Positions 28,419 through 63,783 of a stretch of 64,000 nucleotides of DNA are shown piece by piece. The position numbers and the translations under genes were made by a program. The stretch comes from Bryopsis sp. KO-2023 (Eukaryota; Chlorophyta; Ulvophyceae; Bryopsidales; Bryopsidaceae). Where the stretch lies: assembly GCA_030272585.1 (NCBI GenBank), contig BSYQ01000004.1, positions 186,001 through 250,000 of the forward strand, read 5' to 3'. Below the pieces are notes generated by a model, which saw only the letters and a list, made by a program, of their open reading frames with translations, was not told where the DNA came from and made no database searches. Each line of letters starts with the position of its first letter. Position 1 is the stretch's first letter.

Positions 28419-29055
28419 TTAGTCCGACGGCCAATTACTGAGAACTGTTCATACAAACATCCACATTTGGGTTGGCCTTCACACAGTCCATTTGGGTAAT
28501 TGTTCACATTTTTCCAAGCATGTTCTAGCGGTGATAAGTGAGTGGTAAAGATTTGAACATTGGGGGGGGTTGGGGGTCTTTGCAAGCAAGGTCACTTGAA
28601 GAAACCGTGGAGACAACTGTGATGTTTATTTCCTACATTAATTAAAGGGAAAACCCCCTCACAGGCCAAGGACACCCATCCAAAAAAGGATTTTTTTTCT
28701 TCTCTTCAGTGGCAGAGTGTGACCGGCCGAAACCACGATCCACTTCGCTAACCGACCGATAGGAGCCTTACATTCTGCTTTTCCATTCTGTTCGATTCTC
28801 CAGAAGTTGGAGAGTTCCCAAGCTGCACATTTCTGGGGAGACATTGAACTTTCTTCGAGCTGGTTCAGTAAGGACCGGAGAACATTTTCCCTCATTCTAA
28901 ATCACAACATTTGGGAGCGTAGCCAGCAATGTTCCTCCAGTTTGATTTGACTGTGTAGGTACATGTTGGATAGCTCTTTTGTCTCGATGGATGGGTTGGG
29001 CTGAGGGTATTTTCTGGTTAAGATTTTTGGTGGGTTGGAAAAATTCTTGTTTTCA

Positions 29056-29073
29056 AGTGTGTACGTACACACT
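29056..29073. repeat. 18-bp perfect palindrome, left-arm copy
   Basis: The sequence AGTGTGTACGTACACACT is its own reverse complement. The right arm keeps it, extended to 20 bp, at 63243-63262, although surrounding bases have changed. It may be a dimeric protein site or simply a cruciform-prone element. Confidence 0.75.
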
Positions 29074-29622
29074 CCGTACTTTAAACAAATTTTTTGGGGG
29101 AGAGATAAAGCACTCTCCCACAGGTAACTTTTGATAAGCCAATACTTGATTTGATTCTCAGCAACACTTGAAACCTAAGAAAATGCTTCAAAACTTATCC
29201 CCCCCCCCAAAAAAAAAAACAGAAAAGAAATTGAACAACAAGAAATCCAACCATTTTCATCAAGAGTCCCTGCAAACAGTTATGAGTGTATCCCGGAGTC
29301 CTTGACCAGTGTAATAAGGATGGGTAGGTCCAGGTCTGTGAGATCGTTATGGTGGATAGTTATGGTAATAGTCATGTGGTTCGATGTCTCACGCTTGGCA
29401 GTTGGCAGAGTGGGTTGGATAGGAACATGGATGGATGGTGGTAACTGTCGTTATCCCAAGTGTGGGTATAAAAGGGTGTCAGAACATTGAGTCTGTGCCT
29501 TCTATTGTAAGTCTTGCAACATTGAGTCGTCTCCTCATTGCATCAACCTACGAACCCAATAACCAGGCAGAGATTCGGGGAAACGTCTGCAGGGACCTCG
29601 TTCCCCCATCCGTTTCGACTGT

Positions 29623-29976
29623 TTGAAGGAATGCCAGGTTGATTTCGATCTTCTCAAGGTGGTGAATTTTCCAGAAGAGAAATCAGAGTTGACCAACTAC
29701 CTGCTGGCATGCAATGTGATGCGTGTGGTTGACGCTGGGGCCGGAAAACATCTCAACGATTTCAACAAACTAAGGAAAGAAATGGAGAGCATCCCAATGT
29801 TTTATGTTTTTTTAAGTGGTGCCGAACAAATTGAATATATAAACAAGCGGAAAACAGGGGTGGATTTGAACCCTGCATGCACCGAGAGCACAAGGTCCAC
29901 AGCAAAGAACATGTCTTGGATTGAAGGAAGCTATTGCTTGAAAAGGTATATGAAGCTTGAAGGGAAAAAGCAATGA
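29623..29976 (+). other. Unassigned ORF in the left-arm-specific segment
   Basis: A 117-codon open frame beginning without ATG (TTG in frame) and directly preceded by open codons back to a possible acceptor at about 29590. It reads as ordinary soluble protein (FDLLKVVNFPEEKSELTNYL, then FVFLSGAEQI-like sequence) and is not low complexity. It could be an exon of an unrecognised gene or a remnant carried by the inserted DNA. It belongs to no family I recognise. Confidence 0.25.
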
Positions 29977-30348
29977 GCTCCTACTACTAAGTTTGCCATA
30001 CAAGAGATGTCTTATTGAGACTTATTGTCTTTTAATGTGTTGCATTGGTGAAAAAGAAAGAGTGATCATGGATGGGTCCTGTTGTGTTGGGTGGAGCTGT
30101 GTGTGCTAATGTTGGGGCTTTTCAAAGGTGGCTACAAAAATGCTGCCGGCAAAGATCTTTGGCTTTTCCTCGTGTGCCTTTTTTCCAACCCAACCATTAA
30201 AAGTAATTCAATTGTGATAGATGGAAACAACTTAAGCATGGTCTGATGTTGTTGCTTCCAGCCATTGCCCTTCCACATTTGGAAAGGGCTGATGAGTTGA
30301 TGCGAGGTATGGAAAAAAAAACAAAAAAAACCCGTCAGGTTGAAACTT

Positions 30349-30383
30349 TCAACGGTCCCTTTCAACTTGAAAGGGACCGTTGA
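30349..30383. repeat. Perfect 17-bp hairpin with a 1-base loop
   Basis: TCAACGGTCCCTTTCAA at 30349-30365 is followed by one base and then its exact reverse complement at 30367-30383. It lies 52 bases inside the right edge of the left-arm-specific segment. Such a tight palindrome is unusual and could be the end of an element or a recent inverted micro-duplication. Confidence 0.85.
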
Positions 30384-31054
30384 TAAATTGATTTTCAACA
30401 TGTAGAACATGGTGGGAGGTGTTGTGACGGCTGGCGAACTGAGAAATTGAAGGAGGTTTTGAGGTAGTATGATTTAATGCATTTGCCATGGTGAAAAAGG
30501 TATTTCCACGAAACTGCTTGTGAGACTGCTCCTCAAGAGCAGGAAAAAAAAAATAAAGGGGGAATTGAAGGCACAATAAACTTACAAATCAGTGTTTTTC
30601 GTCCCAAGAAAATATTACTTGGCAAGGCGCCTATGGGAAGGAAACTCTGGTCCAGAGGTATCAGTTAAGAAAAGTGAGTGAGGCAAGGCCTTTCAGTTGT
30701 TCTTTTCGACTTTATGGCTTTTTTGGGCAACTGTTTGGACGTATTGCAACGATACTGCGACACCTCAAAAAAAACAAAAAACCGAAACAATACATTGCAG
30801 AGTGAAAAAACAAAACCTCCCACTTGCAGTTCAACTTGGGAAACTTAACCGAGATGCTCATTTCGTAGAATTTCTGAAATTTGCTGCCAGCAACTCTCGT
30901 GCAACTGCCCCCACCCAAGCCAATTGTTGACAACGACACAGCCAAATTTCATTGATTTTCTGCGCCAACCGTTTCCCGCCCTTTGGATATAATTATTGAC
31001 CCGACAAGGAATCCACCACCTTTCTTATCCTTCGACTGAGCGTGAATTGAAGAG

Positions 31055-34000
31055 ATGAGCAGACACGCAAGGGAGCTCCTTGGGATCCCCCATGGCGAAG
31101 GCGCCGGTGAGAGCGTTCGACGGGTATCCCAAGCTTGATTTTACAGTCGGTCGGATTGCAAAAGTTTGTAACAGGTCTCAAACATGCTCAGCGTTCACGT
31201 CGTTCTTGCTTATGTCCACACCTGAGCAGGGCAGCCAACGAGGATAGAAGCCTACACGCGCTTCTACTCGACGTTGTGGGACCAGGCCGTCGCGCGAGTC
31301 TTCCCTGGACCCATGAATCGTCAGCTGCCAGAAGAGGAACGACTTGACCAAGGCTAGCAAGTTGCGACAGACTCCAACCAACACTACGCTACTACAGCAG
31401 ACCAAAGTGGTAAAAAAACAAGTTGAGGAGCTGCGGGAGTCGAACTTCCTGTCCAAGTGCAGGAACCTCTTGGGTGTGTCCGACTTCAGCGCACGGGCTC
31501 CACACAACACAGAGCCACAGTACTAGTCTGAGAGCTCCAACGCGGGATCTGCGTCCTCCAAGATCATCAATCAGGTTCAACAGGAGACCGAGACCGACGG
31601 AGAATCTCGTTTTGATTCCACTTCTACAAAGAGAGGCTCACTTGGACACAGGGACAAAATCAAGTCGAGTGATGAATCCGACGACTCTGTTGAGTCTCTC
31701 CTAGCTGGCTCCGAGGTGGGTTATAGCTCTGGTGCCGCATCACTTCTCTTGTCCCTCTTTTCTCCGAATTCACAGGGTGCGTTTGTATCGCAGGCAAAAC
31801 GTCTTTCCGATTCCTTGAAGCTCCACACCATGGATGAATTCAAGCCTGAGCAAGTGGAGCGGCTGGACGCTGAGATTCCAGCTCCTGGCGAGTCGCCTGT
31901 CGCGGCTGACCCCAAGGTATGTCGGTTTGCAAAAAGAACGCTCCAGCTGTTCTTAACCGTCGATACAGAACAAAGCTCCTTATTTTTGTTGTGTTTTTGC
32001 ATCCAGCCCGTTCGGCACATATACCGCTATGAGGAATATGATGAGTGGGGGAGCAACGATTCGATGGCCGAGGGTATGGACATGCAGTGGCTCGACAATG
32101 TGGATGGGGATCCCAAATTCGTCCGCAGGATCGATGCTCTGGTACGTTGGCTCTTAAGCCAGCCCATCATGGAGTCGGTGTGGATTTCTCTGTATTTCAA
32201 ACAACAGTGAACAAGCAGGATTGGATCTCAATAAAAGTGAACGGAAAGAAAGTGTGGCTGGGCGCAAAATTGATCGTCGCCTTTGACGTCTCTGAATAAA
32301 CGATTCCTGTTTTGATTGGTAGGACTACTATTTGAGGATGGATGGGGAGGATAGCTCAACGACAGACGTGGATGGGCACTTGGGGATCAGCAGTGGAGGA
32401 AAACTCCATGAATCCCAGACGAGTGTGGGGATGGATCTCCGAGAACAGTTCGCTGGCGAGAATTGCCAAGGAAGTGCTGGCAACCACAACAGGAGGTCGT
32501 CAATTGTGCCGGTACCATCAGCATTCTTTGCGTCGAACACTCAGAAGGAGGGCGGAGGAGAGTATGATGAACTTCCACTGGAAAACTCTCTCGGGTCGAT
32601 GCAGTCGAATAACAACATGCTGGCATTGAGGATCATTGAGGAGGTTGTGAAAGATGAGGGTGGGTCCTTCGATTCCACATTGATGGATACTGACGACAAA
32701 AAATCGCACAGTGGGATAAAATCGTCAGAGAGAGTTTCTGTTATCGATTCGGACCAACAGGTCTATGCTGATGATGGCTACAAGCCCTCACTACATGGGG
32801 AGAATATTAAAATGGACAGCAAGATCACGATTCAGACGAGCGTTACAACCTCGTCCGAGTCAAGAAACCACAAAAACAGAAAGAAGACAGTGAAGCAGAG
32901 GACAGGCGAGGCCCAGACTTCTTTGAGGTTTTCTCAGACAAGTGCTGGCATACCTCGAAAAACAAACACACGCACCATTGATATTCAGACCGAAAGGGAG
33001 TCTTTGATACTGGGAAACATCGTAGACAAACAGGAAAACATCACTCTTGACACGTCAAGAAAGACTTCAAGCGCGGGCATCCCTCTGAAAAGCCCGAAAG
33101 CAAAAAAAGTTGATACCAAAAATCAGCAGGCAGGGACGGGGTGGCTATCTGAGCTGGTCCCAAAAGAACTTCTTGAAAGATTCGGTCTGGAGAAAATCAC
33201 CAAAGGAACCGCAAGGACGCCTGACCAGTTCCACATGCATCTACACTTCAAAGAGAAAAAACCCGCTCCACACCAGGCCGGAATCGAAAAAATGGCTGAG
33301 CAAAGGGACAAATCAGTAACACAAGGCGGCAAGCGAGCGGTGCAGGCGTCGATTCAACACTTCCAGGAGTCTTCAGCAACAGAGGAAATGCGATCTCGCA
33401 TTTCGACAGAGTCTTACCATGAATTTGAACCACCTGTTCAGGAACCTGATGGAGGTGTCGAGGGGAATGGAAATGGGGAAGCATCGTGGGATGCACTCCG
33501 CTCCTTGTGCAAAACAATGGGCGAGACAGTTCAGGAGGCATGTCAGAAATTATCTGAATCTGAGCCCACCACAGATCAAGACCAGAGCGATGGCGATCTG
33601 TATATGCACGAGCAAGAGGCTTACGAGGAGGAGGAGTCAATGTATGCGGAGACACCGAGACGATCAGATATGAGCCAAAATTATCGTCTGGGGAGAGAGG
33701 CGGAGTATGACCAACACCAGAGCAATAGGTCCAGGAGGACCGAAGCTCCTAGTTTTCAAGCAAGTTACCAAAGAGACGGATATTACAACGACGTAGATCA
33801 CCGTGGAGGATATTCCAAGGAAGCACACCACATCAGGGAAAGAGAGCACTTACGCAATTGCAATTATCACATCAGGGAAAGAGAGCAAAGTAACATACAC
33901 CACCAGAAGGGATACAGTGGTCGATCAAACTGGAACATGTCCCCAAGAGATTCCAGGCCGAGATACTTTCAGGAAGAGGTCCAATTTGTTGATCGAGAGG

Positions 34001-34506
34001 AGCATGGGTACAACAATGGATTTTCTGTTGGGGCCATGAGGCATTACGCCTCCGACCAACGAACCATCCATGAACATGCACCCAGAAGATATTCCCAAGT
34101 GCATCCTCCACAATATCAGCCCAGAAATCATCACTTCCAACCTGCCAATCACCGTGACTTCTACGAGGAATCCTTCGCAAGCGATCTCAACAGCTTGCCA
34201 AGCATCTTTTCCCCAGCTGTAATCGACCGATCGGTCGACGAGGCCGAGGAGCGATGGAGGATCCATCAGGAAAACCTGATGAATAAACTCAGAAAGGCGA
34301 ACAGCGTCTCTTCGGGGGGTCCATCCCGCAGTGGAAGACCCACTCGACCTGAATCGAATCGCAGAGAGAACCCACAAGGCAAAGGAAGAATGCACGAGGA
34401 GCGCAGGCAATCGAGAAGCACAATATCCAGCAGCAGCACCATCCAACAGGTTGCGAGGGACATGGAAATGCTTTCTTGCCGCCTTCAAAGGGGATCGAGG
34501 CAGTGA
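31055..34506 (+). CDS. Gene B, left copy: unknown protein with disrupted 5' coding part
   Basis: By alignment with the right copy, exons are 31055-31106, 31230-31916, 32007-32141 and 32323-34506. The last three-quarters is intact and nearly identical to the right copy, but exon 2 is not. A 2-base loss near 31285 and further indels shift the frame, giving in-frame stops near 31350 and 31526, plus an extra stretch of about 70 bases around 31500-31560. Exon 2 is 687 nt against 620 in the right copy, a difference not divisible by three. Either this copy encodes a shortened protein (first in-frame ATG at 31830, about 800 aa) or it is decaying. The protein is not recognised. Visible features are a short coiled coil (QQTKVVKKQVEELRES), acidic Ser-rich stretches and a long Arg/Tyr/His-rich disordered region in the last 300 residues, with two HIRERE repeats. 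Confidence 0.6.
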
Positions 34507-35773
34507 ACAATTCGGAGAACTCTGGGGTTGGGATATGTTTGGGTGGCTTTATGATATGTTTTGGTGACTACAGGAAGAATGAAATTCGGGTGGCTTTATG
34601 AAATGTTTCGGTGAATACTGGGGGAATTTACCGTCGTCTGGAAAGGAAACGACTGCTTGAGTGTGATTGTTTGAACTTTTTATGTATTTTTTACTTTTCA
34701 TTCTGTGTGCTCACTTCTTTTGCTGCCACATCGAATTGACCCATGGTCTACATGGCAATTCCATGTGTTTTGTGCACCCTTTTAGAAAAACAATAAATTT
34801 TTTCTCTTTCCTAGAGATGATACAAGCAAGACCAAGCTTTGAGCAATAAAGAAAATCAAATTTTTAAGTGAGAATGAGTGGTTTGTGGTCAAAAATCATG
34901 AAACCAAGCCAAACAGACTCCACAATTTATGAACACTGAGTCGACTACATTTTTGATTGGTTAAACAAAAATTATTGAGAATTACAGTAGATGCTCACCA
35001 CATGAAAGAAAGAATTATATATAATATCTATATATAGATTTTGTTTCAACCACAACGATGCAAGCCACTTTGATAGGGACGATGGATTGCATCACATATC
35101 TTTGTTTTAATTCCAGTTCATCACTCAAAGATTATACACCGTCAAGATCGGTGTCGCAAAGCTCGAATTACACACAGTTCCAGGCTTGTGATGCGATATA
35201 TGTGTTCTATGAAAGGATTGGTTACAACAAAAAAACTCTAATACACCTAAATCATCTGGTTGTGGACGGCCTTCGTTGGTCACTACCACAGGTGCACATG
35301 TATTTTAAAATCTTGGCTTTTGGGATAGTGCGTCCTGGAGTCGGGGATGATTCTTGGTTGTGTTCGTACGCGGTTAGCTGTTTTGGACTCGTGTTGGAAA
35401 AGCAGGAAGAAAAAAAAGAAAAAGAAAAAAAATCGTTCTTGACGCCTCGCCCCATCACCCTTCCACAGTGCTCCTGATACCAGAAACACTTCTGCGCAAT
35501 TAGTTTCACGGCACCAACCCATTGACGCCACAAAGCTGCTGGTTGGTCATCAACCCACCAGTTCATTCCAATTCGGCTGTCACAACTTTGGCAAGCACCC
35601 ACAGCCCTTCAGGCCGCGACGCTTACTTGAATCGTATGGAATGAGAGTTCCACACCGAACACAAGTGTGAGTTCTCCTTGGTCCCCTGTACTTGTACAAG
35701 TAATCCCACCCCCAACGCGCTCCATCGATCGAAAACTTGGTGTTCTGGTACGTTGGGAAGGGAGGACAGGTGA
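34507..35773. other. Region between gene B and oxidase, left arm
   Basis: The first 660 bases (to about 35170) match the right arm closely. From there to the oxidase ATG at 35774 there is no similarity to the corresponding right-arm DNA. The oxidase promoter must lie in this unique part. Open frames at 35058-35602 look fortuitous. Confidence 0.5.
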
Positions 35774-38593
35774 ATGAGAAAAAAGATGGGAGGCTGTGCA
35801 GGACTCTTTCTTTTCTTCGTGGTGTTCGCCGTGGTGCGAGACACCGCTACTGCGGCGAGCTTCACTTCCTTTTCAGGGAGGGAGACCTGCGAGTCCCCGC
35901 AACTGCTCAAACCCAGCTCTGTAGAGGAGATCCAAAATATAATAAAAAATGCGAGGGCGAAGGGACAAAAAGTGAAAGCGCTGGGAACGAGACACGCATC
36001 TTCAGATATCAATTGCGGAGACGACGTTTCGCTGGACTTGGCCAACTTCGCAAGTGTAGAGATTGACTCCGGAGAGATGCAGGCCACCGTCGGTGTTGGA
36101 GCAACGCACGAAATTTTGCTGAACTCGCTCCTGGAGCAAGGATATTCTGTTGTCCATCCGTCGGTAAAGTACCCAGGTAAGATAAAAAAATTCTGCGAAC
36201 GTGTCGGGGGTGAGTGCTCAGCCTGCCAGCCAAGTGTTTGGGAGCTGAACAGTTTATCGCTCGTACCATGGCCTCGGTTCTAGTGAGGGGGCGCCATCCT
36301 CCAAGAACGTGGCAAAAGCGCCGTCCATCCACAACTTTCCTTGTGTCATCATCATTAGCAAATAACGCTGACAGGCAAACCGCTGACTGCGAGATATGGT
36401 ATTTGGTATTTGGGCGTACATCAGATATTCGACTCTGCGTAAGGCAATCGTTTTTCAGACGGGATTTTTGTTTGATTCTTCTTGCGACCACGAGTGGTTG
36501 TTCATCGTCACTTTTACTGTCCGACCAGTCGATGTTTTCGCGTGCGCCCTGCGAATGTGCACCCATTACCCTGTTTTCGCTGCGAAGATACCCACATGAG
36601 GGGGGCCTTGTATGTGTGAAAGACAGAGCTAAACTTTTACCTCTTTTGATTTGAGAACAATCCACAAAGCTGGGCAATTGAACAATCAATCAAACACAAC
36701 CAATTGCCTGATATTCAAGTGCATCGCAAGTTCCAAGTTCTAAGCCACATTGACATATACATGCATACAAATCATATGATTATCCTTGCAGGACTTTCAG
36801 TGGGGGGAACCCTTGCCACAGGAGCCCACTCTTCTTCCTTGTTACACCCTGCAAGTATCTCTGATCAGGTAACCATCGATGAAATGGAAAAAACAGTGTG
36901 TGTGGGGGTGGTACCCCCCCCCCCCCCCCCCCAATTCATGTTGTCCAAATTTGCAAATTTGCTGCAGACAATTTTTGAGAATCCTTGAAAAATGCAAAAT
37001 GCTTGAAACTTAACCTTGGTGCATCTTTTCCAGGTGGTAGCTCTCACATTGGTGGATGGACGAGGGAAAGTCAGAAAAATAACTGGAGAAAAGCTGAAGG
37101 CTGCAAACGTGAACATCGGTGCCCTTGGGATCGTCATCGATGTGACAATAAAAATAGTCGAAAACTACAAAGTCAGCTTGGACTTCATTGACCGAGATGA
37201 CTCCATTCTGTTCAATGGAGAAGCTGTGGAGTGGGCAAAAAGACAGGATTATTTTGAAATGAGTTGGTTTCCCTCTGCCAGCAGAGTGGTGGTGTTCAAT
37301 GGTACTTATGTCAACATCAATACACCAGGTAATCCCAATGGCTCGCATCCAACTCTAATGAAATGTTGCAACTCACCTAAAACCCCCATTCCAAGTTTCA
37401 TGCTTCAGGATACCACGCTACTAATGGTGTCCTTTTTTGATATATCCTGAGGGCCCGTTGATTGCACAGCCACCACCTTCTTCAACTTTTCTCTTTTTCT
37501 GTTTTGGTATTGTTGCTTGTAGGGGATGGTAGAGTCAAGTTCGTGCTGACCACCACCCCAGATTTTATCGGAGTTTTGGAGCAAGCTAATGGTGATCGGA
37601 ACCAAGCCTTTTTCTGCGGATCGGAGGCGGCCAATCGTGATGGGCTGGCGTTCGGCAAGAACGGCATCCCTCAATCGTTCAACGGGAATGGAGAATTTTC
37701 CAGCAAAATCACCGGCACCATGAAAGACGTGCTGACCACGTTCTGTCCTGACGGCGGGTGTGCATGGGACAACCCTGGACCGAAGTTTATATCCAGCACC
37801 ATAGAATTTGCTTTTGACCTCAACACGCTGCCGCAAGCGCTCCTGGCCGTACGGAACATTATCGATAGGAGGTATGGATGGACATAAAGGTAGCACGTAA
37901 CACGAAAAACCAAAAGAACTGAAATGGTATATATCCATGGTGCTTTTCGAGATTTTTTTTTCAATTTCTTTCCATCTTTTGAAATTGAATCCTTGACCCC
38001 CAGGATCAAGACAGTGAACGATGGGGAAAATGATGTTAATTTTACATAAAGGATAAAACTTTTCTATTGTGCTTTTCTCTTGTTCACGCAGGCCATGGTG
38101 TGCCATTGCTGCGGAAGGCATTCAAATCCGATTCATGCAGAAGTCTGACAATTATTTATCCCCATCCAGTGGGAAAGACGTGGGTGTTTTCGAAATCGTC
38201 ATTCCGTTGCGGCAAGAAGAAAATTCCTCGCATTTCGGAATGTCGACCATGCAAGAAATCTATCAAACCATGCTGCTGGAGTTCAAAGGCAGACCTCACT
38301 GGGGGAAGAACGGCAGGTCATCATTCGCGGACCCCTGTCCGACGATGCCGGAGCTTTACCCAGATTGGGATAAGTTCATGGCGGTTAAGGAAGAGCTGGA
38401 TCCGGAAGGGGTGTTTGAGAATGAATTTTTCAGGCGATTGACTCGACAGCAAGAGCTGCCAAAATTCAAGTTCTGCGCGATAAACGATAAGTGCATTTGC
38501 AGCGAAAATAGCCATTGTGCATACGACCAGATCTGCGAGCCTCAAGTGATTGGTGGGAAACGAGTTGGAATCTGTATCGATAATTTTTCCTAA
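35774..38593 (+). CDS. L-gulonolactone oxidase-like FAD oxidase, left paralogue
   Basis: Exons 35774-36176, 36792-36868, 37034-37328, 37523-37871 and 38092-38593 sum to 1626 nt (541 aa). The enzyme class oxidises aldonolactones such as L-gulono-1,4-lactone with O2, the last step to ascorbate. A hydrophobic signal peptide (GLFLFFVVFAVV) precedes the mature chain, as in secreted plant GulLO proteins. The FAD-binding PCMH domain has GTRHASSDI, whose His is the usual site of covalent FAD attachment, and GLSVGGTLATGAH. The C-terminal ALO domain has the substrate/FAD motif HWGKN. The chain ends in a Cys-rich tail (seven Cys in the last 45 residues), again as in plant GulLO. The start is the ATG directly before the signal peptide, although another in-frame Met lies four codons on. 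The paralogue on the right arm has the same internal exon sizes. Plant GulLO activities vary, so the substrate is not certain. Confidence 0.85.
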
Positions 38594-40379
38594 TTTGAAA
38601 ATGAGCCCACAGTAATTGTTTTCGGCAGTTGGAGGATAATGTAGACCAGAGCTTTTCCTTCAGATCTCCAAGGGTTGAACTTCTTTTTTTTTTTTGCTTA
38701 AGTGTTAAAATAATTTATTTAGCATAGAGTTTGGTTGGACAATCGTCCTGGACATTCCGCTTCTGTGCTGGACAGGACGTTAGGAAATATTCACAAGTCA
38801 AAAAAGGGGATAATTCAAGATGACAGACATGGGATCTTTGTTATTATTAGGTTTGAATGTTTGGGTCAAGACAAACTTGTGTGCTTTTGTCCATTCGCTT
38901 CTTTCTTTCTTGCTTTTTTTTTTCAATTTACCCTGTAATGCACGAAATGAAAACACACTGGTCCCTGACTTGAACGACGATATAACGGGACAAAAAAATT
39001 ACGCTGTCTCTCTCTAGACAGGTGAAAAAAAGGTTTTTACTCTCTGGGGACAGGGATTGGGGGGAAAAACCCCTGTTGTCAAGTGAACAACTTGAAGAAG
39101 AAGAAAAAAACACAAGAGAGCGTAAAAGAAAATGAAAGCAAAGAAGGGGGAGGGGGGGTAGTTCTCTTATTTTGAGAATTTAGTTATCAACTCCCTCATT
39201 TCGAAAATTGTCTTCAATGGGCGAAAAAAAAAGAGCCAAAAGGCTGTACTTTTTCCTAAAATGTTGGTCGCTCAAGTGACAGGCCAGTGCAGTTGAATTT
39301 TAATTGAGGAAGCTGGTGGTGGTAGTAAACAAATGCACCACTCATAGTCGGTTAAACAGACATTTACACGAACTGTGCACAAACAGCCCTTTTCTTCAGA
39401 ATTAGGTCAATCTAAGATTCTTTTCTTGCAATGGTCTGCCCTGGTGACCTCATCTTTCCTCAACGGAGTTGTAAAACATCAGACTCAAGCATCTTGTTTC
39501 GAGGCAACAGAATAATTGATATTGATTCGAAACAGTTCCACCTTCCCACTGTTTTTCTTCTTTTTCTAATGCCTTTGAAACCCTGTCTAGGTGGTGACTA
39601 AAAGGATTCCAGTGCAATTTTTTTCAACGAAGTTTCGTTAACATAATGTATTGTTGTATTACTGCAACACAGCGGTAATATTGCAGTCTTAGCTTCTTCA
39701 CATAAAATAATTTTTGATTGCTGGTTGAAAAAAATTCTTGCAAAAAAGATTTCAACCCTGTTCAAGTATGGAGCAATGACTGCATGGGGACAAGTTATCC
39801 ACCACCACCTAATCAGATCCACCAATCGATTTTGCCCTTCAAAAAATGTATTTCATCTCCTCTTTGTTTGTGAATCAAAGGACACATGCTCTCTTTTCTT
39901 TCGTGAAAGAATTTAGTAAACTCCCGGAAACAGCGCAGCCCAGCGTGGCTGGATTCGTGCGGATGACTCATGTCAGAAGACAATCTGCCCAGATCTGCTT
40001 GTGCGTACGTGGTCCAGCTCAACCCAGCGAATGCCAAGGTCCACAAGTTTTTTGGATTGGAAATATCCTTTTGGAAAGGGTGGTTTTGCACAAAAGCTGG
40101 CGAGGTGTGGACTCTCGCAAGAAGAACTACGAGACGATGCTTGCGTTAAGTACTGCCATTAGTGGAGCTACGATATTCGTAGCCAAGTTTGCACTGTTTA
40201 CTCAAGCCCGAGATACGAAATTGTGTGGCTGGTCAGCGAGTTAGGAGGGACACTTTCGCTCCAAAACCATTCGTCGCTTGAGAATCGCCGATAGCATTCA
40301 TTCACCGACCGCGCGCAACGCGCGCGTCGCGTTTTGTTTCCTTTTCGATGCTCCTGACGACACCCACATTTTACTCTCA
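38594..40379. other. Spacer between left arm and NhaC gene
   Basis: A/T-tract-rich DNA without similarity to the right arm's inner flank. It contains the oxidase 3' UTR and the antiporter's 5' region. The open frame at 39846-40244 has no domain and no ATG that I would trust. No gene is seen. Confidence 0.45.
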
Positions 40380-43300
40380 ATGTTTCGCAGCTCGATGGGG
40401 CGGGGTTCTATTTGCCTGGTGGCGATTTTGGTGCTGGTGTGGCCATGCACGGGAGTTCCGACACCCCTGGAACTCAAAACGCCCAAAGTCGTCCTCAGCG
40501 GCAGAGGTTTCACTTTGGGCTTCTCCTTGCAGTGGCCAGCAGCGCAAAAGATAACGGGTGCGCCGATCACTCTTTCGCTCCCAAAACAATGGTCAAGTGA
40601 ATGCAGTTTTCGTCGAGAATGCCCCGTTGATGCTGATTGGCGAGTTGAAACCCTCAACTTTGAACCGCGCCGTCGAATTACCATTCGCGCGTGCAAGGGT
40701 GGTCGCCATTGTTTGAGCTGTATAGACCCATATATGCAACACATAACGCCCGAGAATCTTGGTGTGGCGTAGATGAGGTTTTCTACAGAGTGATGTTCGA
40801 TGGACGAGATATCGCGTCCTGCGAGCAGCCGCCTTGTTCCTTTCCTTCGGCGGTGGACGACGCCATCGTCGTCACCGGGGAGGCGCCAGGCCTGATCATT
40901 AATGACCACGGAAAACACACAGTTACTCTGCAACTCGCTGATGCCGAGGATTTCACCGGCTCGACGTCTTCTACGAAAGGCGTCTGGGTCGCCCCTGGCG
41001 GCCTGACGCTTTTTCCTCCGTTGCTGACGATCTTGCTCGCGGTCGTCACCCGTCACGTGCTCTTGTCGCTCTTCCTGGGGACGTTCGTGGCTGTTTTCAT
41101 CGTGGAGGAGTATAACCTGCTGTGGGCGTTCTTGAGGACGCTCGACAAATACATTCTGGGAGCTGTGGCGGACGCAGATCACGTTTTTGTCATACTGTTT
41201 TCGTGGTTTCTCGCGGGGATGGTAGCTGTGATCCAGAAGAACGGCGGGGCTCGAGGAGTGGCGGAGGCTTTGGGACGATACGCGAATACTCCGAAAACGG
41301 GGCAGCTTGTCACATACCTGCTCGGCTGGGTCATCTTCTTCGATGGTGAGTGCATGGCGGCTGACGCTGTACGAAACGCACGTGAATGGCGTTAGCGCAC
41401 GTCACCCCGCCTACATGTTGAATTCTTGAGATCTCTGATCTTTGATCTTGGTCTCAGAAAGATTTCACAAAATAAACTTGAATGGTTCACTGTAGGCTTT
41501 GCTGAAACCTACTTAAAAATATAAATCATCACTTTCTGTCGTGGAATGGTCAGCTGTTTAAAAAAAATAAGAAAGCCTTTCGAAGAAAGGCAGCCACCTC
41601 CAGCTAACGCACACAAACGATATATATCACCCCACTCATCCAGGTTCTCGTTGACTTCAGATTATGCAAATACACTGATCATCGGCCAGACAATGAGGCC
41701 CATCACAGATGCTCTCTGGATCAGTCGAGAAAAGCTGGCTTTCCTTGTGGATGCGACGTCAGCACCTGTCGCCTCCCTGGCCCCCATCGGATCTTGGATC
41801 GGCTTTGAAATTGGGTTGATTGGGGACCAAGGTACCGAGGATATCTCCCTGTTGTTTAGGAAAAATAACACTCATGCAGGAATATTAATTCCTGTTTTTG
41901 AGGTGTTCTTGTCAGGGTTTTCCTGCTTCCATGGATTTGCAAATTCAACCTTTCAACGTTTTTTTATTTTTCCCCGCACATGCCTAGGACACACATTGCA
42001 ATCACGTTTAGTGCATGTCAGTACCACAATGAATTGTTCCAGCTTTTTTTTTCTGATCCAGAAAAAAACCACAAAAAACTGTGACCGAATGAGATTCAAT
42101 ATGCCACCATGGTTCTTTTTTTTGTTATAGAAACAATGGGGCAGATTTTGAGGATCTGTATGTGCCATTTTGCGTAATTTTCACAGTGACATTGTTAAAA
42201 GAGGCCAAGGCAGATCTGAGTGGCTATGAAACCAGTAGCTACATAATTTTCTTGAGGACGATTCCATCTCGATACTATCCGATTCTGATGCTTATTTTCC
42301 AATTGACTTTGATCCTCACCAACCGTGAAATGGGACCCATGCTGGCTGCTGAACGAAGGGCCCGATATTCTCAACAGCTGTCAGACGAGAGTGCGAACAG
42401 AACCGTGAGTATCTGTTCCTCTGCTTGCTTGTGTTTTTTCTTCTTTTCCATCAATCGAATTAATCGGGGGGGGCGGGGGGGGGGGGGGGGGGGGGGGGGT
42501 ATCAAAAGAAAAGGATATAGAACTAAAGATATAAGTTATGTAAGTTATTATTGTTTGAGGATAGTAGTCCCATGCAGTTTATTTTCGTGAGGAATTTTTC
42601 CTCTCTGGATTGTTTTTCACAATCGATTGTGAAATGTACAAATTTTCCTTGCATTGTTTTTTTTGGGGGGGTGCTTCAGGAGGTTGAATTGGATAATAAA
42701 TTGCTGCCAAATGAAGACACTCCAAGGAAGTGGTGGAACAGCATAATCCCCATTGCCGTAACTGTGATTTTTGTGATTTTGGGACTCTTGCTTTCGGGAA
42801 ATTATGCTATCGATGATGGGGACAAAAGCATCGAAAATATCTTCTCCAACGCGGACTCGTTCGGGTAAATCTGCCCATTCAGCATGCAAATACCAAGGGA
42901 TTTCCCTGCGAATTTTCCTTTTCTTCTCCTTTCCTTTTTTTTTGGGGGGGTTCGTGTTCAACCTAGTATTCCACTGTCTTTTACCACCATAGGGCTCTTC
43001 TGTGGGCGGCCTTTCTTGGAAGCTTCACCGTTTGGCTGATCAACTCCATGCAATCCGTCCGTGGGGGGGTGATCGTTGGAATTCAGCCCCCCCTGCTGGC
43101 GAACACACCATGTCTGACCCATAACGACGGCCGGAGACCTCTCATGAGCTGGCGGGAAAGCTTCGACGCCTGGGTGGAAGGGATCAAGAATCTGACAGGT
43201 GCGATATTGATCCTGATCATGGCCTGGACGATTGGATCGGCATTCACGGATGCTGGGGTTGGAGAATATGTGGCGGATGCCATCAGCGAAAACGTGGATC

Positions 43301-44165
43301 ATAGAGCCATTCCAGCACTCACTTTTGTTATTGCTGCGGTGATATCTTTTGCCACTGGGACTTCCTGGGGGACCATGTCGATTTTGTTCCCGATCGCTGT
43401 TCCGACCGCTTATTATGCCAGTCCTGGAGATACGGACTTGTTTTACACCACCATATCTTCCATTCTGGCTGGATCGGTGTTCGGGGATCACAGGTATGAA
43501 CTGCTTAGCAGTTTGTTCTGCTTCTCAACAAACGCAACCCTGCGGAATATTTACCATCAACCTATATTTCGATCAGACCTTTCTCTGAATTTGAAGTCTC
43601 TATTGATTCCTGAACAAACCAACCTCGTTTCCCCCCCCCCAAAAAAAAATTACAACAAAAACTCACTCCATGAATGTGTACTGTCATTTTTGTTGGTGTG
43701 CCAACACATTTCATGAAGCTTTCTCTGTTTCTGCTGTTGAGTCGTTCATATCACAGCAAATATCTGAGTTTTTTTTGTTGTTTCTTTTACAGCACTGCGA
43801 TTAGCGACACCACCGTTCTTTCGTCCCTGGCAACAAAGTGCGACATTCGCCATCACGTTGCCACTCAGCTTCCTTATGCTTTGTGGGTTGCCACAATCGG
43901 TGTGCTGTTGGGAGACATTGGAAGTGGCTATGCCTGGCCAGATTGGGTTGGCCTCATTCTGGGGGCTATTTTTGTTGTTGCCTCGGTGTTTGTTCTCGCC
44001 GTCAGAGTGGATAAGCTGGAGCAGCAAGACCCCATCACCACCGTTGTGTCAAAGTTGAGGAGGAAGTTGGGATGGGGTCAGCCCAGCTTCAGTCTGACCT
44101 CCACTGAGCTGATCAAGGTTGATTTGCCCAATTCAATCAATGAATCCAAGCATTCCATTAATTAG
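40380..44165 (+). CDS. NhaC-family Na+/H+ antiporter
   Basis: Clear exons are about 40789-41344, 41661-41831, 42187-42404, 42680-42864, 42993-43493 and 43793-44165, with matching phases. The membrane domain matches eukaryotic and bacterial NhaC (COG1757) proteins: FPPLLTILLAVVTRHVLLSL, HVFVILFSWFLAGMV, FDDYANTLIIGQTMRPITD, SREKLAFLVDATSAPVASL, GTSWGTMSILFPIAV and FGDHSTAISDTTVLSSLA. These hold the Asp/Asn/Thr residues conserved in the ion-binding core. The gene opens at ATG 40380 with a signal-peptide-like stretch (SICLVAILVLVWP) and a Pro/Val-rich segment, which suggests a lumenal or extracellular N-terminal domain. The joining of this start to 40789 is unresolved: three frames are open in turn between 40550 and 40790, so one or two tiny introns or a frameshift must exist. 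It exchanges Na+ for H+, presumably at the plasma membrane or an endomembrane. Confidence 0.8.
42466..42499 (+). repeat. 34-base poly-G tract in an NhaC intron
   Basis: All G except one C at 42474. It lies in the intron 42405-42679 and is a likely site of length error in the assembly. A similar 19-base poly-C run is at 36914-36932 in an oxidase intron. Confidence 0.9.
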
Positions 44166-55723: not shown

Positions 55724-58121
55724 CTAAAAGCTATCTACACATACCCCTACATCTCTACCGCCAATCACCAATGGCTCGCAAAACTGCCCATCTGCGCAGT
55801 GACTGCTCTCGCTGCAAACACACTTGTCTTTTACGGCGCAGTACTTAAATTTCGGCAACTCTTGTTGTCTGGTCAATCGCCTAAAAAAATCATTCTCAAA
55901 CACCCCTTCCGGGTCCAACTCTTCCTTAACTCCAATGAACTTATTCCACTCTGGGTAAATCTCCGACACCGTTGGAAAGGGGTCCGCAAACGTTGCCCTG
56001 GCGTTTTTTCCCCAGTGCGGTCTTCCCTTGAACTCCAGCAACATGGTATGATGGATTTCCTGGAGGGCTGACGTTCCATAATGGGAAGAGTTCTCCTTTT
56101 GCCTCAGCGGAACAATGGTCGTCACGATACCAGCATCTCGGCCGTTTGAAAACGATATGTAATTGTCCGTTTTCCGCTGAAACCGAATTTGAATCGCTTC
56201 CGAGGAGACTGCACACCAACGTCTGGACGCATAAAACGCAGAAGTATCAGAAAAAACGCTTCGTAGAAAAATGTACCTTCGGACGATACTTGTCTTTTGG
56301 AGTGAGATATGACCTGAATGCCTACCTCTTGTCGATTATGTTCCGCACAGCTTGGAGCGCCCTTGGGAGTGTCTCAAGGTCGAACGCGAATTCCATTGCG
56401 TAGAGCAAAAACTTCGGTCCCGGGTTGTCCCATGCGCACGTACCCGCAGCACAGAACGAGCTCAACACATCTTTTACGACGCCTGTAATTGAACTGGAAT
56501 ATTCTCCTTTGGAGTTAAACGATTGAGGAGTCCCATTTTTGCCAAAAGCCAAGACATTACGAGCAGCCGCCTCGGCCCCACAAAAAAACGCATTGTCACG
56601 GGCAGCGGAAGCCTGCTCCAAAAGCGCGACAGTCTCTGGAGTAATGGTCAAGGGAGCAAGCACTTTTCCATCGCCTTTACACACAAACGCAGCCACTCAA
56701 AACACTAGATCAGCAGAGAGAATTGCAACAGAAGCACCCAAGTGGAAATAATCAAACTCTACAGAAATCTCTTTGATCACTTGCCTGGTGTGTTGATGTC
56801 CACATAGGTTCCTCGCAACGCCACCACTTTCTTTGTGCTCGGGAACCAACTCATTTCTAAGTAGTCTTGGTTCCTTGCCCATTCAATAGCTCTTCCATCG
56901 AAAAGAATAGATTCATCATTGTCAACATACTCTAACTTTACTTTATAATTTTTAACAATTTTTATTGTCACAGTAACCACCACCCCAAGAACACCAATGT
57001 TCACATTCACAGCCTTCAATTTCTCTCCAGTGATTTTTCTCACTCTCCCTTGTCCATCCACCAAAGTCAGGGATACCACCTGGAAAAAAGGACAATGACA
57101 AAATTAATTGGATTACGAAAGCTTGAAAAGGCAAGACTTGCATATTATCCAATCCCTTTTCCATGTCAGCAATTCGTACCTGGTCAGATATACTTGCAGG
57201 GTGAACTAATGAAGATCCATGAGCTCCTGTAGCGAGTGTTCCCCCTATTGAAAGACCTGCAATAGAAAAACCAACAGTCGGTGTTCGAAATATGTACATA
57301 TTTCCCTCCTTCGGGCATTTGTTATGGAGGAAATCAATACGGTTTCGCTGTACTCCCAGCTCAAAGAAAGCGCACGAACTGTACGATTGAAGCTCAGCTT
57401 CGCGGCAGCCTTTTCGTACTCGCTTGGAGCTTACGGCGGCTTGTTGTTATTGGTTCCCACGTGTTTAAATCAAACAAACAGCGCAACCGTTCCGCCAACG
57501 ACAACGGAATTGTGGGGCGTCGCAACAAAACCAGAGCCCAAGCAGGACATTACTTGATCACTTATCGCGGTCATGACCGCAACGAGTCCTCACTTCGAAA
57601 CTTTCCGGAAAAAACAAACGAAATCAAGCAGTACGAAGTGCAGTTCCGGAACAACAGTGGATTGCCGCCCACGGACAAGAGTTTCTTATCTCAGACAAGG
57701 AAAACGACGGCGACCAATGATACCTACCCGAGAATTTCATCGATGGATGGATCACTGAATACCCCTGCTCTTGAAGGGCGTTCAGCATAGTTTCGTGTGT
57801 TGCTCCTGCACCGACCGTTGCTCGCATCTTCTTGGGGTCGACCTTGATGCTGGCTATGTTGGATAAATCCAGCGCAATTCCACCCGCGCAATTGATATCG
57901 GAAGACGAATGTCTTGTTCCAACGGCTTTCACTTTTTGCCCATTGTCTCTGGCTTTTTTGACAATGTTTTGTATTTCTACGACACTGGAGGGTCGAAGAC
58001 GTTCCGAAAACTCGCAGCGCTCAGCCCCCGACTGCGAAACGAAGGTCGTTTCGGCGGAAACCGCTTCTCCCACCACCGAAACAAGCACTGCTAGAGCGAA
58101 CGGAACGAAACGTGGACCCAT
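55724..58121 (-). CDS. L-gulonolactone oxidase-like FAD oxidase, right paralogue
   Basis: Exons on minus are 58121-57728, 57256-57180, 57079-56785, 56674-56326 and 56222-55724, summing to 1614 nt (537 aa). The three internal exons (77, 295 and 349 nt) are exactly the sizes of those in the left paralogue. A signal peptide (FVPFALAVLVSVVGEAVSA) leads the chain. GTRHSSSDI provides the His for covalent FAD, GLSIGGTLATGAH completes the FAD-binding domain, HWGKN lies in the ALO domain, and the Cys-rich tail ends in VCVDSF. It is about 70% identical to the left paralogue over the first PCMH segment by eye. The third intron uses a GC donor (CCAG|GCAAGT) where the left copy has GT. Both copies look intact, so two secreted or vesicular oxidases with different promoters are expected. 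ATG 58121 was chosen because it directly precedes the signal peptide; an upstream in-frame ATG exists. Confidence 0.85.
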
Positions 58122-59061
58122 GTTGCCTTTCGTCACCCGTAGTTTGTTGCGAACAGGTGCGTTTCTTAAGTGGAAGGGAACGCCCCCTGACGCATGGCCA
58201 TGGTACAAACACGCATATCCAATGCTTGTGTTGACAGGACGCCGCCGGTCCTCAACATCCATTATAACGCACTCTTGTGGGAAGGCTGGGGCGGGCGTGC
58301 GTCCCAGTATTTGTAATTCATTGACAGGTGCCTCCGCATTAATGACTCCTGTGGCACACGAATAGGAAGAATCGGACAGAATGAAGAGCATAAGATAACG
58401 CTCCGTCGGTTAGCAAAGTTAATTCAAGCTTTGTCACACCGATCTTGACGGTGTGTAATCTTTGAGTGATGAAGTAGAATTTAAACAAAGATATGTGATA
58501 CAATCCATCGTCCCGGTCGGAAAAAACTTGCGTCGTTGTGGTTGAAACAATCTATAATTCATTCTTTCATGTGGTGAGCATCTGCTGTAATTCTCAATAA
58601 TTTCTGTTCAACCAACCAAAATGTAGTCGAACCAGTGTTCATAAATTGTCGAGTCTTTCATGATTTTTGACCACAGACCACTGATTCTCACATGAAAATT
58701 TGATTTGCATTATTGCTGAAAGCTTGGTCTTGTATCATCTCTAGGAAAAAAAAACTTGATTGTTTTTTCCACAGGGTGCACAAAACACAAGGAATTGCCA
58801 TGTAGACCAGAGGTCAATTCAATGCGGCTCCAAAAGAAGTGGGCACACAGAATGAAAAGTAAAAAAACAAAAAATCTTAAAGTTCACTCAAACAATCACA
58901 CTCAAGCAGTCGTTTCCTTTTCAGACGACGGTAAATTCCCCGAGTAGTCACCAAAACATATCATAAAGCCACCCGAATTTCATTCTTCCTGTAGTCACCA
59001 AAACATTCCACAAAGCAACCAGACTTGAAACACATCCCAACCCCAGAGTTCTCCACGTTGT
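58122..59061. other. Region between gene B and oxidase, right arm
   Basis: From 59061 down to about 58420 it matches left-arm 34507-35170 at roughly 90%. The remaining 300 bases next to the oxidase start have no left-arm counterpart and should contain the right paralogue's own promoter. Confidence 0.5.
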
Positions 59062-62000
59062 TCACTGCCTCGATCCCCTTTGAAGGCGGCAAGAAAGCAT
59101 TTCCATGTCCCTCGCAACCTGTTGGATGGTGCTGCTGCTGGATATTGTGCTTCTCGATTGCCTGCGCTCCTCGTGCATTCTTCCTTTGCCTTGTGGGTTC
59201 TCTCTGCGATTCGATTCAGGTCGAGTGGGTCTTCCACTGCGGGATGGACCCCCCGAAGAGACGCTGTTCGCCTTTCTGAGTTTATTCATCAGGTTTTCCT
59301 GATGGATCCTCCATCGCTCCTCGGCCTCGTCGACCGATCGGTCGATTACAGCTGGGGAAAAGATGCTTGGCAAGCTATTGAGATCGCTTGCGAAGGATTC
59401 CTCGTAGAAGTCACGGTGATTGGCATGTTGATTTCTGGGCTGATATTGTGGAGGATGCACTTGGGAATATCTTCTGGGTGCATGCTCATGCATGGTTCGT
59501 TGGTCGGAGGCGTAATGCCTCATGGCCCCAACAGAAAACCCATTGTTGTACCTATGCTCCTCTCGATCAACAAATTGGACTTCTTCCTGAAAGTATCTCG
59601 GCCTGGCATCTCTTGGTGACATGTTCCACTTTGATCGACCACTGTATCCCTTCTGGTGGTGTATGTTACTTTGCTCTCTTTCCCTGATGTGATAATTGCA
59701 ACTGCTTAAGTGCTCTCTCTCCCTGATGTGGTGTGTTTCCCTGGGATATCCTCCACGGTGATCCACGTCGTTGTAATATCCGTCTCTTTGGTAACTTGCT
59801 TGAAAACTAGGAGCTTCGGTCCTCCTGGACCTATTGCTCTGGTGTTGGTCATACTCCGCCTCTCTCCGCAGACGATAATTTTGGCTCATATCTGATCGTC
59901 TCGGTGTCTCCGCATACATTGACTCCTCCTCCTCGTAAGCCTCTTGCTCGTGCATATACAGATCGCCATCGCTCTGGTCTTGATCTGTGGTGGGCTCAGA
60001 TTCAGATATTTTCTGACATGCCTCCTGAACTGTCTCGCCCATTGTTTTGCACAAGGAGCGGAGTGCATCCCAAGATGCATCTCCATTTCCATTCCCCTCG
60101 CCACCTCCATCAGGTTCCTGAACAGGTGGTTCAAATTCACGGTAAGACTCTGTCGAAATGAGAGATCGCATTTCCTCTGTTGCTGAAGACTCCTGGAAGT
60201 GTTGAATCGACGCCTGCACCGCTCGCTTGCCGCCTTGTGCTACTGCATTGTCCCTTTGCTCAGCCATTTTTTCGATTCCGGCCTGGTGTGGAGCGGTTTT
60301 TTTCTCTTTGAAGTGTAGATGCACATGGAACTGGTCAGGCGTCCTTGCGGTTCCTTTGGTGATTTTCTCCAGACCGAATCTTTCAAGAATTTCTTTTGGG
60401 ACCAGCTCAGATAGCCACCCCGTCCCTGCCTGCTGATTTTTGGTATCAACTTTTTTTGCTTTCGGGGTTTTCAGAGGGATGCCCGCGCTTGAAGTCTTTC
60501 TTGACGTGTCAAAAGTGATGTTTTCCTGTTTGTCTACGATGTTTGTCTTTCCCAGTATCAAAGACTCCCTTTCGGTCTGAATATCAATGGTGCGTGTGTT
60601 TGTTTTTCGAGGTATGCCAGCACTTGTCTGAGAAAACCTCAAAGAAGTCTGGGCCTCGGCTGTCCTCTGCTTCACTGTCTTCTTTCTGTTCTTGTGGTTT
60701 CTTGACTCGGACGAGGTTGTAACGCTCGTCTGGATCGTGATCTTGCTGTCCATTTTAATATTCTCCTCATGTAATGAGGGCTTGTAGCCATCAGCACAGA
60801 CCTCAGCCTGTTGGTCCAAATCGGTAACAGAAACTCTCTCTGACGATTTTATCCCACTGTGCGATTTTTTGGCGGCAGTATCCATCGATGTGGAATCGAA
60901 GGACCCACCCTCATATTTCACAACCTCCTCATTGATTCTCAATCCCAGCATGTTGTCATTGGACTGAATCGACCCGAGAGAGTTTTCCAACAGTTCATCA
61001 CGATCTTCTCTCTGGGTGTTCGATGCAAAGAATGCTGATGGTACCGACACAGTTGACGACCTCCTGTTGTGGTTGCCAGCACTTCCTTGGCAATTCTCGC
61101 CAGCGAACTGTTCTCGGAGGTCCATCTCCACACTCGTCTGGGATTCATGGAGTTTTCCTCCACTGCTGATCCCCGAGTGCCCATCCACGTCTGTCCTTGA
61201 GCTATCTTCCCCATCCATCCTCAAATAGTATTCCTGCCAATCAAAACAGAAATCGTTTGTTCAGAGACGTCAAAGGCGATGATCAACTTTGCGCCCAGCC
61301 ACACTTCTTTCCGTTCACTTTTATTGAGATCCAATCCGGCTTGTTCACTGTTGCTTGTAATACAGAGAAATCCACACCGACTCCATGATGGGGTGGCTTA
61401 AGAGCCAACGTACCAGACCATCGATCCTGCGGACGAATTTGGGATCCCCATCCACATTGTTGAGCCACTGCATGTCCGTATCCTCAGCGACCGAATCGTT
61501 GCTCCCCCACTCATCATATTCCGCGTAGCGGTATATGTGCCGAACGGGCTGGGTATAAAAACACAACAAAAATAAGGAACTTTGTTCTGTATCGACGGTT
61601 AAGAACAGCTGGAGCGTTTTTTTCCAGACCGACATACCTTGGGGTCAGCCCGGGCGGGCGACTCGCCAGGAGCTGGAATCTCAGCGTCCAGCCGCTCCAC
61701 TTGCTCAGGCTTGAATTCATCCATGGTGTGGAGCTTCAAGGAATCGGAAAGACGTTTTGCCTGCGATACAAACGCACCCTGTGAATTCGGAGAAAAAAGG
61801 GACAAGAGAAGTGATGCGGCACCAGAGCTATAACCCACCTCGGAGCCAGCTAGGAGAGACTCAACGGAGTCGTCGGATTCATCACTCGACTCAATTTTTC
61901 CCCTTTGTCCAAGCGAGCCACTCTTTGTGAGAGTAGAATCTAAACGAGATTCTCCGTTGGTCTCCGTCTCCTGTACACCCTGATTCATGATTCGTGCGCT

Positions 62001-62432
62001 GAAATCAGACACACCCAAGAGGTTCCTGCACTTGGACAGGAAATTTGACTCTCGCAGCTCCTCAAGTTGTTTTTTGACCTCTTTGGTCTGCTGCAATAGC
62101 GTCGTGTTGGTTGGAATTGGTTGCAACTCGCTAGTTTTGCCCATGTCGTTCCTCTTCTGAACGATTCCTGGGTCCAGGGAGGACTCGCTCGACGGCCTGC
62201 GGTCCCACAACGTCGAGTAGAAGCGCGTGTAGGGCTCAATCCTCGTTGGTTCTTGCCCTGCTTAGGTGTGAACATAAGCAAGAACGACGTGAACGTTAAG
62301 CATGTTTGGGACCTGTTACAGATATTTGCTTTCCGACCGACTGAACGATCGAGCTTGGTACAACCGTCAACGCTTCTCACCAGCGCCTTGTCCATGGGGG
62401 ATGCCAAGGAGCTCCCTCGCGTGTCTACTCAT
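59062..62432 (-). CDS. Gene B, right copy: intact unknown 992-residue protein
   Basis: Exons on minus are 62432-62381, 62257-61638, 61548-61414 and 61233-59062, summing to 2979 nt with all phases closing, so this copy looks functional. It starts MSRHARELLGIPHG, then YTRFYSTLWDRRPSSE, a short coiled coil (LLQQTKEVKKQLEELRES) and a SNFLSKCRNLLGVSDFS block. An acidic Ser-rich stretch, IYRYAEYDEWGSND and a long C-terminal exon follow. That exon has one probably folded segment (LSELVPKEILERFGLEKI, then FHVHLHFKEKK) and an Arg/Tyr/His-rich disordered end with a repeated HIRERE. No signal peptide or membrane segment is seen, so it should be cytosolic or nuclear. I recognise no family. Its neighbour in both arms is the oxidase, but they share no promoter, so a functional link is unproven. 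Confidence 0.7.
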
Positions 62433-63242
62433 GTCTTCAATCCTCTGTTTCACGCTCACTCTGGTTGTGAAGGATAAAAAAGGTGGCGGGCTCCTTGTGG
62501 GGTCACCTAACCGTGGGAAGCGGTTGGCGCAGAAAATCAATGAAATTTGGCTGTCGTTGTTAACGATTGGTTTGGGTGGCGACCAATTCAACGAAATCAG
62601 CAGCTCGGTTAAGTTTCCCAAATTTAACTGCAAGTGAGAGGTTTTGTTTTTTCACACTGCAATATAATGTTTATTCCTTCGTTTCGTTTTGTTTTTTTGA
62701 GGTTTGGACGTATCGCTGCGTTAAAAACCGTCCAAAACAGTTGCCCTGAAAAGCAACAAAGTCGAAAGAAACAGCTGAAAGGCCTTGCCTCACTCTTTGC
62801 TATCTTAACTGGGTACCTCTAGACCAGATTTTCCTTCTCATCGGTGTCTTGCCAAGTAATATTTTATTGGGACGAAAAAACACTGATTTGTGAGTTTATT
62901 CTGCCTTCAATTCTCCCTTTAATATTTTCGAGGAGCAGTCTCATAGGCAGCTTTGTGGAAATATCTTCTTTACCACAGTAAATGCAAAAAATCATACTAC
63001 CTCAAAACCTTCTTTAATTTCTCAGTTCTCATCAACTGTTTGCAGGGACTCTTGATGAAAATGGTTGGATTTCTTCTTGTTGAAATTCTCTTTCTCTCTT
63101 TTGTTTGGGGGGGGGATAAGTTTTGGAGCAATTTCTTAGGTTTTAGGTGTTCCTGAGGATCAAATCAAGTATTGGCATATTCAAAAGTTGAAACCTGTGG
63201 GAGATTGCTTTCTTCTCTCTCCAAAAAAATGTTTAAAGTACG
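62433..63242. other. Upstream flank of gene B, right arm
   Basis: Matches left-arm 30436-31054 in its inner part and 29074-29286 in its outer part, with the 1.15-kb left-arm segment missing at about 63029. It contains the gene B promoter. No additional gene is seen. Confidence 0.5.
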
Positions 63243-63262
63243 AAGTGTGTACGTACACACTT
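63243..63262. repeat. 20-bp perfect palindrome, right-arm copy
   Basis: AAGTGTGTACGTACACACTT is self-complementary over 20 bases. It is the counterpart of the left-arm palindrome at 29056-29073, which is perfect over 18. Confidence 0.75.
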
Positions 63263-63783
63263 TGATACAAGGATTTTTCCAAACCCACCAAAACTCCTAA
63301 CCACAAAATACCCTCAGCCCCAACCCATCCATCGAGACACAAGAGCTATGCAACATAAACCTGCACAGTCAAATCAAACTGGGGGAACATTGCTGGCTAT
63401 GCTCCCAGATGTTGAGATTTAGGATGAGGGAAGATGCTTTCCGGTCCTTACTGGACCAGCTCAAAGAAAGTTCAATAATGTCTCCTCAGAAAATGTAGCC
63501 CGGGAACTCTCCAACTTCTGAAGAGGAGAGCAGCCAGACTGCAAATTCGAATTCGTAAGTGCTGCTAGCCTCTATTAATTCACAACCTTCAGTTCCTTCT
63601 TGACAATCCCCCCCCCCCTTCTCTGCCCCCAGAAACACCAAAAATAACCCAGAAAAAATAATCCAGCGAAAAAGCCACCAAAACCAAATACTGGGAAAGA
63701 GGATATCCCCCAGGGTAACCATAAAAAGAAGATAAACAAGAAAATGTTGAGCAAAAAAAAATCAAGTTTGAATTTGTATCTTT

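Follow-up and report, generated by a model that had tools for sequence, protein, structure and literature searches.

A mirror-image gene pair in Bryopsis sp. KO-2023 that appears more composite than a single inverted duplication

Colour-sidedness in cattle, the subject of work by Durkin in 2012, reportedly goes back to serial translocation by circular intermediates, a segment having been reinserted through a circle as we propose for the locus described here; the cattle segments are said to be recent and much larger than ours. In human circular-DNA-mediated segmental duplications (cSDPs), according to the part of PMC7450558 available to us, the block order A-B is changed to B-A and the old ends are joined inside the derived copy. 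For cSDPs (PMC7450558) and eccDNA-mediated duplications (PMC7188851) alike, the accessible text describes junctions with microhomology or short indels only, and the latter paper, in the same portion, treats two insertions at one point without gap or overlap as very unlikely. The locus analysed here shares the permuted order and the short joint of these cases, and is placed in an unusual setting, a mirror-image gene pair.

Two ages within one inverted structure

The window, i.e. the whole stretch of 64 000 nucleotides analysed, corresponds to C4:186001-250000 of a 91-Mb assembly of 28 contigs (C with a number denotes a contig throughout). Self-BLAST of the window reveals inverted similarity between 28797-38556 and 63524-55758. 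The arms, extending over 28797-38587 on the left and 55727-63524 on the right, carry a gene termed here gene B and a gulonolactone-oxidase-like (GLO) gene in mirror order; this self-comparison bears out the mirror-oriented pair around three unrelated genes, as well as the arm lengths of 9.8 and 7.8 kb, given in the initial annotation. Its naming of the spacer genes also agrees with our searches. These are a part of an NhaC-type Na+/H+ antiporter gene (open frame 42967-43716, plus strand, matching PF03553), a part of an ASH2-like gene (open frame 46978-47469, plus strand; ASH2 chains in a phmmer search of PDB, best E 4e-4) and an LRR gene (50161-51318, plus strand; two open frames with LRR_6). 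Outside the arms, a pair of imperfect palindromes (about 45 bp) overlaps at 22731-22792.

The left GLO gene (35774-38587, plus strand; five aligned exon blocks from 35807) and the right one (55724-58100, minus strand; likewise five aligned blocks) agree in the placement of the splice sites that were compared. FAD_binding_4 matches both arms and ALO the right one, in keeping with the original identification as gulonolactone oxidase; the last left exon is 68% identical to its ALO-bearing counterpart. Over 540 aligned codons the two copies have 66.5% amino-acid identity, a dS of 1.37 and differences at 47% of 158 four-fold sites, which marks them as ancient, with synonymous divergence near saturation. 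Five GLO-like matches exist genome-wide, two of them being the arms; the rest, located on C6 and C8, are distant relatives with 38-45% identity, and over 1 Mb separates them from the gene B copies found on those contigs.

The gene B units, defined as the part common to both arms, lie at 28797-35170 (left, plus strand, main exon 32323-34506) and 58420-63524 (right, minus strand, main exon 59062-61239, with frames open in the pieces seen). Across 720 codons the copies show 93.2% residue identity and a dS of 0.059, with 3.5% of 259 four-fold sites differing; they are either recent or homogenised. Given GLO at a dS of 1.37 beside gene B at 0.059, a single duplication of the pair does not account for both genes unless gene B was later replaced or homogenised, so that the inverted duplication initially reported is present as a structure whereas its origin in one event is doubtful.

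The switch of age along the arm is sharp and falls at 35170/58420. On its gene B side (80-93% match in self-BLAST) the minus-strand self-matches pair 28797-29286 with 63524-63028 (87%), 30436-31495 with 63028-61993 (80%) and 31563-35170 with 61991-58420 (92.5%, E 0). On the GLO side they comprise five blocks of 71-79%, corresponding to exons, and self-BLAST reported no match between 35170 and the first GLO exon or within the GLO introns. High identity therefore does not run along the whole arm, and the matching non-coding flanks claimed earlier hold for the gene B part but not for the gene B-GLO interval or the GLO introns.

Much of the difference in arm length is due to a stretch of 1149 bp (29287-30435) present in the left arm only, missing from the right copy, from a third gene B copy (copy T, C4:557417-561911) and from a gene B fragment on C9; it has weak matches to C3:6083260-6083495 and to C1. 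It contains a 35-bp palindrome (97%) at 30349-30383.

An assembly artefact, with haplotypes or paralogous contigs wrongly joined, is highly improbable. The structure does come from a single assembly, but wrongly joined haplotypes are unlikely because the GLO copies are near synonymous saturation and the outer and inner flanks of the arms differ; moreover, the window contains no N letters, and the spacer half 38800-47600 gave, for 40 of 121 candidates scored, 41 genome matches that comprise, besides itself, a single dispersed repeat. This repeat (45258-45435) takes all 40 other matches listed at that scope. The pair exists as an inverted structure, has no obvious artefactual origin, and is more composite than one duplication would make it. 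Inversion of the spacer by recombination between the arms, as raised in the initial annotation, is conceivable. Elsewhere in the genome, the chlorophyll-binding-protein domain PF00504 has 107 matches, counted exon by exon, which mark the organism as photosynthetic; two of them (C9:482708-483292 and C9:551333-551917) are in opposite orientation, equal in score and about 69 kb apart, and possibly represent a further inverted gene copy.

Permuted edges of the gene B units

Adjoining the left unit on the outside, at its outer (5') edge, is a 55-bp sequence, X (28742-28796, plus strand). It recurs at 58365-58419 (minus strand), right after the inner (3') edge of the other unit and in the same orientation relative to gene B. 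The program alignment of the right X covers 58371-58419, the final bases having been placed by hand; the two copies match at 42 of 49 ungapped positions. When the 61 bases inward from 58420 were compared with the window, the best match after self was 28742-28799 (E 2.9e-7; the next had E 0.30), and none of 20 000 Markov-resampled sequences reached its score of 21.5 (highest 15.5). The order is thus W-X-unit on the left, W being the outer flank, and unit-X-V on the right, with neither gap nor overlap beyond a few bases. The right X begins one base past the 3' end of the unit and ends, as placed by hand, at about the point where the left X meets the unit; the site 35170/28742 is, again by hand, gapless within 1-2 bases. 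Between the copies the order accordingly changes from A-B/C-D to B-A/D-C, as in a circular duplication.

The left-type order recurs on C9, where W is followed by the 3' half of X and then by the start of the unit. W (28438-28741) is rich in dispersed repeats; its part 28512-28741 is common to C9:4529264-4529021, at 80%. The repeat at 28438-28627, just outside the left arm, occurs in at least 21 other places, of which 16 are short stretches, no longer than about 80 bp, at 83-85% identity. The left X agrees with that of C9 at 24 of 26 positions and is closer to it than to the right X, as a circle would lead one to expect, the comparison involving few bases. A genome search with 58300-58440 returned only itself and missed even the known left X, so it is no measure of how rare X is in the genome. 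Among the flanks of other family members (17 flanks, 136 pairs) no permutation was found with a loose scoring under which the known X pair falls within noise and pieces that short would go unnoticed; the pairs that stand out, C8e-C8d at the 5' side and C8c-C8e at the 3' side (letters denote copies on C8), are both same-side extensions.

The direction of the rearrangement is suggested by a relic of an importin-alpha-like (Arm repeat) exon at the 5' edges. On the right it occupies 63382-63561 (plus strand, antisense to gene B) and crosses the edge at 63524 to reach a splice donor; on the left (28797-28935, minus strand) it is truncated at the outer edge, where X adjoins it. An open-frame relative of the exon lies at C3:5371500-5373800 (PF00514), which we take from its translation to be importin-alpha. 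Beyond 63524, 24 of 25 aligned bases match the importin-like exon, including the donor GTAAGTG, with one 6-bp gap, and the right flank scores 16.0, compared with 6.5 for the left flank and no more than 11.5 at any other place among 25 584 windows scanned. In the left copy and on C9 the relic stops at the joint with X. Since the similarity extends to 63561, the right outer edge is not the end of the ancestral sequence; the sharp edges first placed at 28801 and 63520 are correct to within 4 bases as positions, but the right one is not an ancestral end. As the relic crosses the right edge only, the right order would be ancestral at the 5' edge and the X-unit joint derived.

The letters at this joint, read by hand, are GATT-CTTC-C at the right X and CCT-CTTC-AG at the right 5' side, GATT-CTTC-AG on C9 and GATT-CTCC-AG in the left copy. 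CTTC is hence common to both joint partners; C9 retains it, the left copy has it with a single base exchanged, and the closing joint bears microhomology only.

We consider it narrowly probable that the locus is a composite of an old inverted duplication of GLO, a copying of gene B through a circle, and subsequent gene conversion. GLO would have been duplicated long ago in inverted orientation, and the ancestral order upstream of the right GLO would have been the importin-exon relic, the gene B unit and X. The segment consisting of unit and X would then have circularised, the end of X becoming joined inside the importin relic via the 4-bp microhomology CTTC; the circle, opened between the 3' end of the unit and X, would have inserted upstream of the left GLO, giving X-unit, and gene conversion would afterwards have acted between both copies of gene B, its clearest traces being in the gene body. 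Both the circle and the direction of copying we infer from the permuted edges and the relic. What this leaves unexplained is the adjacency to the other GLO in mirror position, where a random circle would hardly land; either proximity or homology steered the insertion, or a gene B of older date already stood there and was replaced.

In two blocks of the unit flanks, 18 informative sites pair C9 with T and the left copy with the right, versus 7 sites for other groupings, whereas the circle would place C9 with the left copy. If the circle model holds, conversion between the left and right copies must therefore have reached the flanks as well.

Exchange between the arms and the gene B family

Conversion was assessed from the left and right copies with T as a third sequence, using the global left-right alignment from 30436 on, its earlier part being spoiled by the left-only stretch. 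In the upstream flank (30436-31685) left and right agree against T at 86 sites and differ from each other at 160, a nearly star-like pattern, versus 222 and 122 sites, respectively, in the gene body from 31686 (Fisher p 1.5e-12 for the excess in the core). The homogenised core spans 31686-34700 on the left (plus strand), with its right counterpart at about 61870-58850. The longest run of left-right agreement covers 15 polymorphic sites (34200-34501; permutation p 0.014), and a run of 319 identical bp begins near 34192; among blocks of 150 alignment columns, 34288-34437 is identical and three (from 31715, 32929 and 33529) reach 99.3%. Local identity between the arms thus exceeds what phylogeny predicts, the signal being concentrated in the gene body. 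These data suggest that the arms exchange sequence, the other arm being the presumed conversion partner. The longest run shared by left and T has p 0.61, and a run of nine sites shared by right and T (30661-30675, p 0.0007) possibly reflects exchange with T or a local misalignment.

The same signal would also fit one ancient inverted duplication of the whole pair, in which gene B and its flank were kept young by conversion between the arms and within the family, and X is a leftover of a tandem array (unit-X-unit) whose units were later lost, leaving X at the inner right edge. Gene B and GLO do have equal order and orientation in both arms, and this account, unlike the circle, explains why GLO stands beside both gene B copies. 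We nevertheless judge it rather improbable, as it needs chance breakpoints in the same phase at both ends of the copy (35170 by 28742, and 28796 by 28797), and X (42/49 between left and right) and W (80% between left and C9) are far less diverged than GLO.

A six-frame genome search with gene B yielded 16 candidates, of which 15 gave matches. Full-length main exons make up eleven of these and are distributed over four contigs: C4 has three, C8 has six (at 1.28-1.67 Mb, on both strands), and C10 and C6 have a single one each. The remaining four matches are fragments on C8 and C12, and relics at the DNA level occur on C3, C4 and C9. The ratio dN/dS is 0.32-0.54 in all 55 pairs of the 11 copies. 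A TGA interrupts the main exon of copy T, and in the N-terminal exon region of the left copy (about 31300-32210) there is a frame change and a TAG stop relative to the right one; the left gene thus looks broken near its N-terminus, in which case the two gene pairs are not equivalent.

The initial view of gene B as a gene of unknown function is upheld by database searches: Pfam yielded no trustworthy match for the main exons of 10 of the 11 copies (best E 0.062) and none for the left N-terminal frame, PDB no solved relative (best E 0.083), and IMG/VR no relative, with none of 73 pattern matches confirmed. Judged from its sequence, gene B is an orphan family. Its AlphaFold model has a mean pLDDT of 37.8 and is for the most part of low confidence; it shows helices at 387-413, 632-659 and 701-724.

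A dispersed family with internally deleted relics, whose C8 copies have a 5' boundary common within about 110 bp, could be pictured as a transposable element with X as a short terminal direct repeat, one end having been lost from each copy. We regard this as quite unlikely. No transposase, integrase or reverse-transcriptase match was found in the main exons of 10 of the 11 copies or in the left N-terminal frame, the unit retains its introns, and its right 5' edge runs into the importin-like exon. Common termini are likewise wanting: copies on C4 end differently from each other (5' at 28797 and 29066, 3' at 35170 and 34700) and from those on C8, copies c and f of C8 remain alike for over 3 kb past the 3' end, and no target-site duplication was seen by eye in the ends inspected. 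What first favoured a transposon was an apparent agreement of the C8 copies at both ends; at the 3' end, however, f is about 840 bp longer than c, and c about 840 bp longer than b, after which homology resumes (for c and f over more than 3 kb).

The C8 cluster itself (C8:1282264-1674000) holds six copies in about 390 kb on both strands. Copies c and f have over 8 kb in common there, and at one and the same point 3' of the gene the cluster has seen gains or losses of stretches of about 840 bp. A more general, tentative and rather doubtful reading is that gene B is a lineage-specific core duplicon spreading via small DNA circles: it would have acquired the piece of importin exon, circularised through microhomology, been reinserted in permuted form next to the mirror copy of its former neighbour, and undergone conversion between the arms, which keeps the copies similar.

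Comparison with known duplications

As to composite origin through a circle, the mechanism proposed is of a known kind. Among the circle-borne cases in the parts of the literature available to us (humans, cattle and yeasts) we found no earlier one in a photosynthetic host; none of the titles and abstract openings describes this locus, which does not show its absence from print. Such a case, if clear and resolved to the base in a photosynthetic eukaryote, would suggest that gene families there, too, grow with the help of small circles the size of a gene. The locus also calls for caution, since a mirror-image gene pair need not stem from one event: the neighbours within the arms differ here more than 20-fold in dS.

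With cSDPs, as far as the available portions of PMC7450558 and PMC7188851 describe them, the locus shares a permuted block order and a joint with microhomology. It differs from them in scale, about 6 kb here versus 22-3918 kb, with a block A of just 55 bp, and in setting: about 23 kb separate the copies, which take mirror positions next to paralogous genes, and the host is photosynthetic rather than human. The gene-containing palindromes of the human Y chromosome, going by the part of PMC6790999 at hand, resemble the locus in that inverted gene copies homogenise each other. Unlike in those palindromes, however, much of the arm is here 71-88% identical or unalignable, chiefly the gene B core having been homogenised, and the arms enclose a spacer with other genes over 17 kb.
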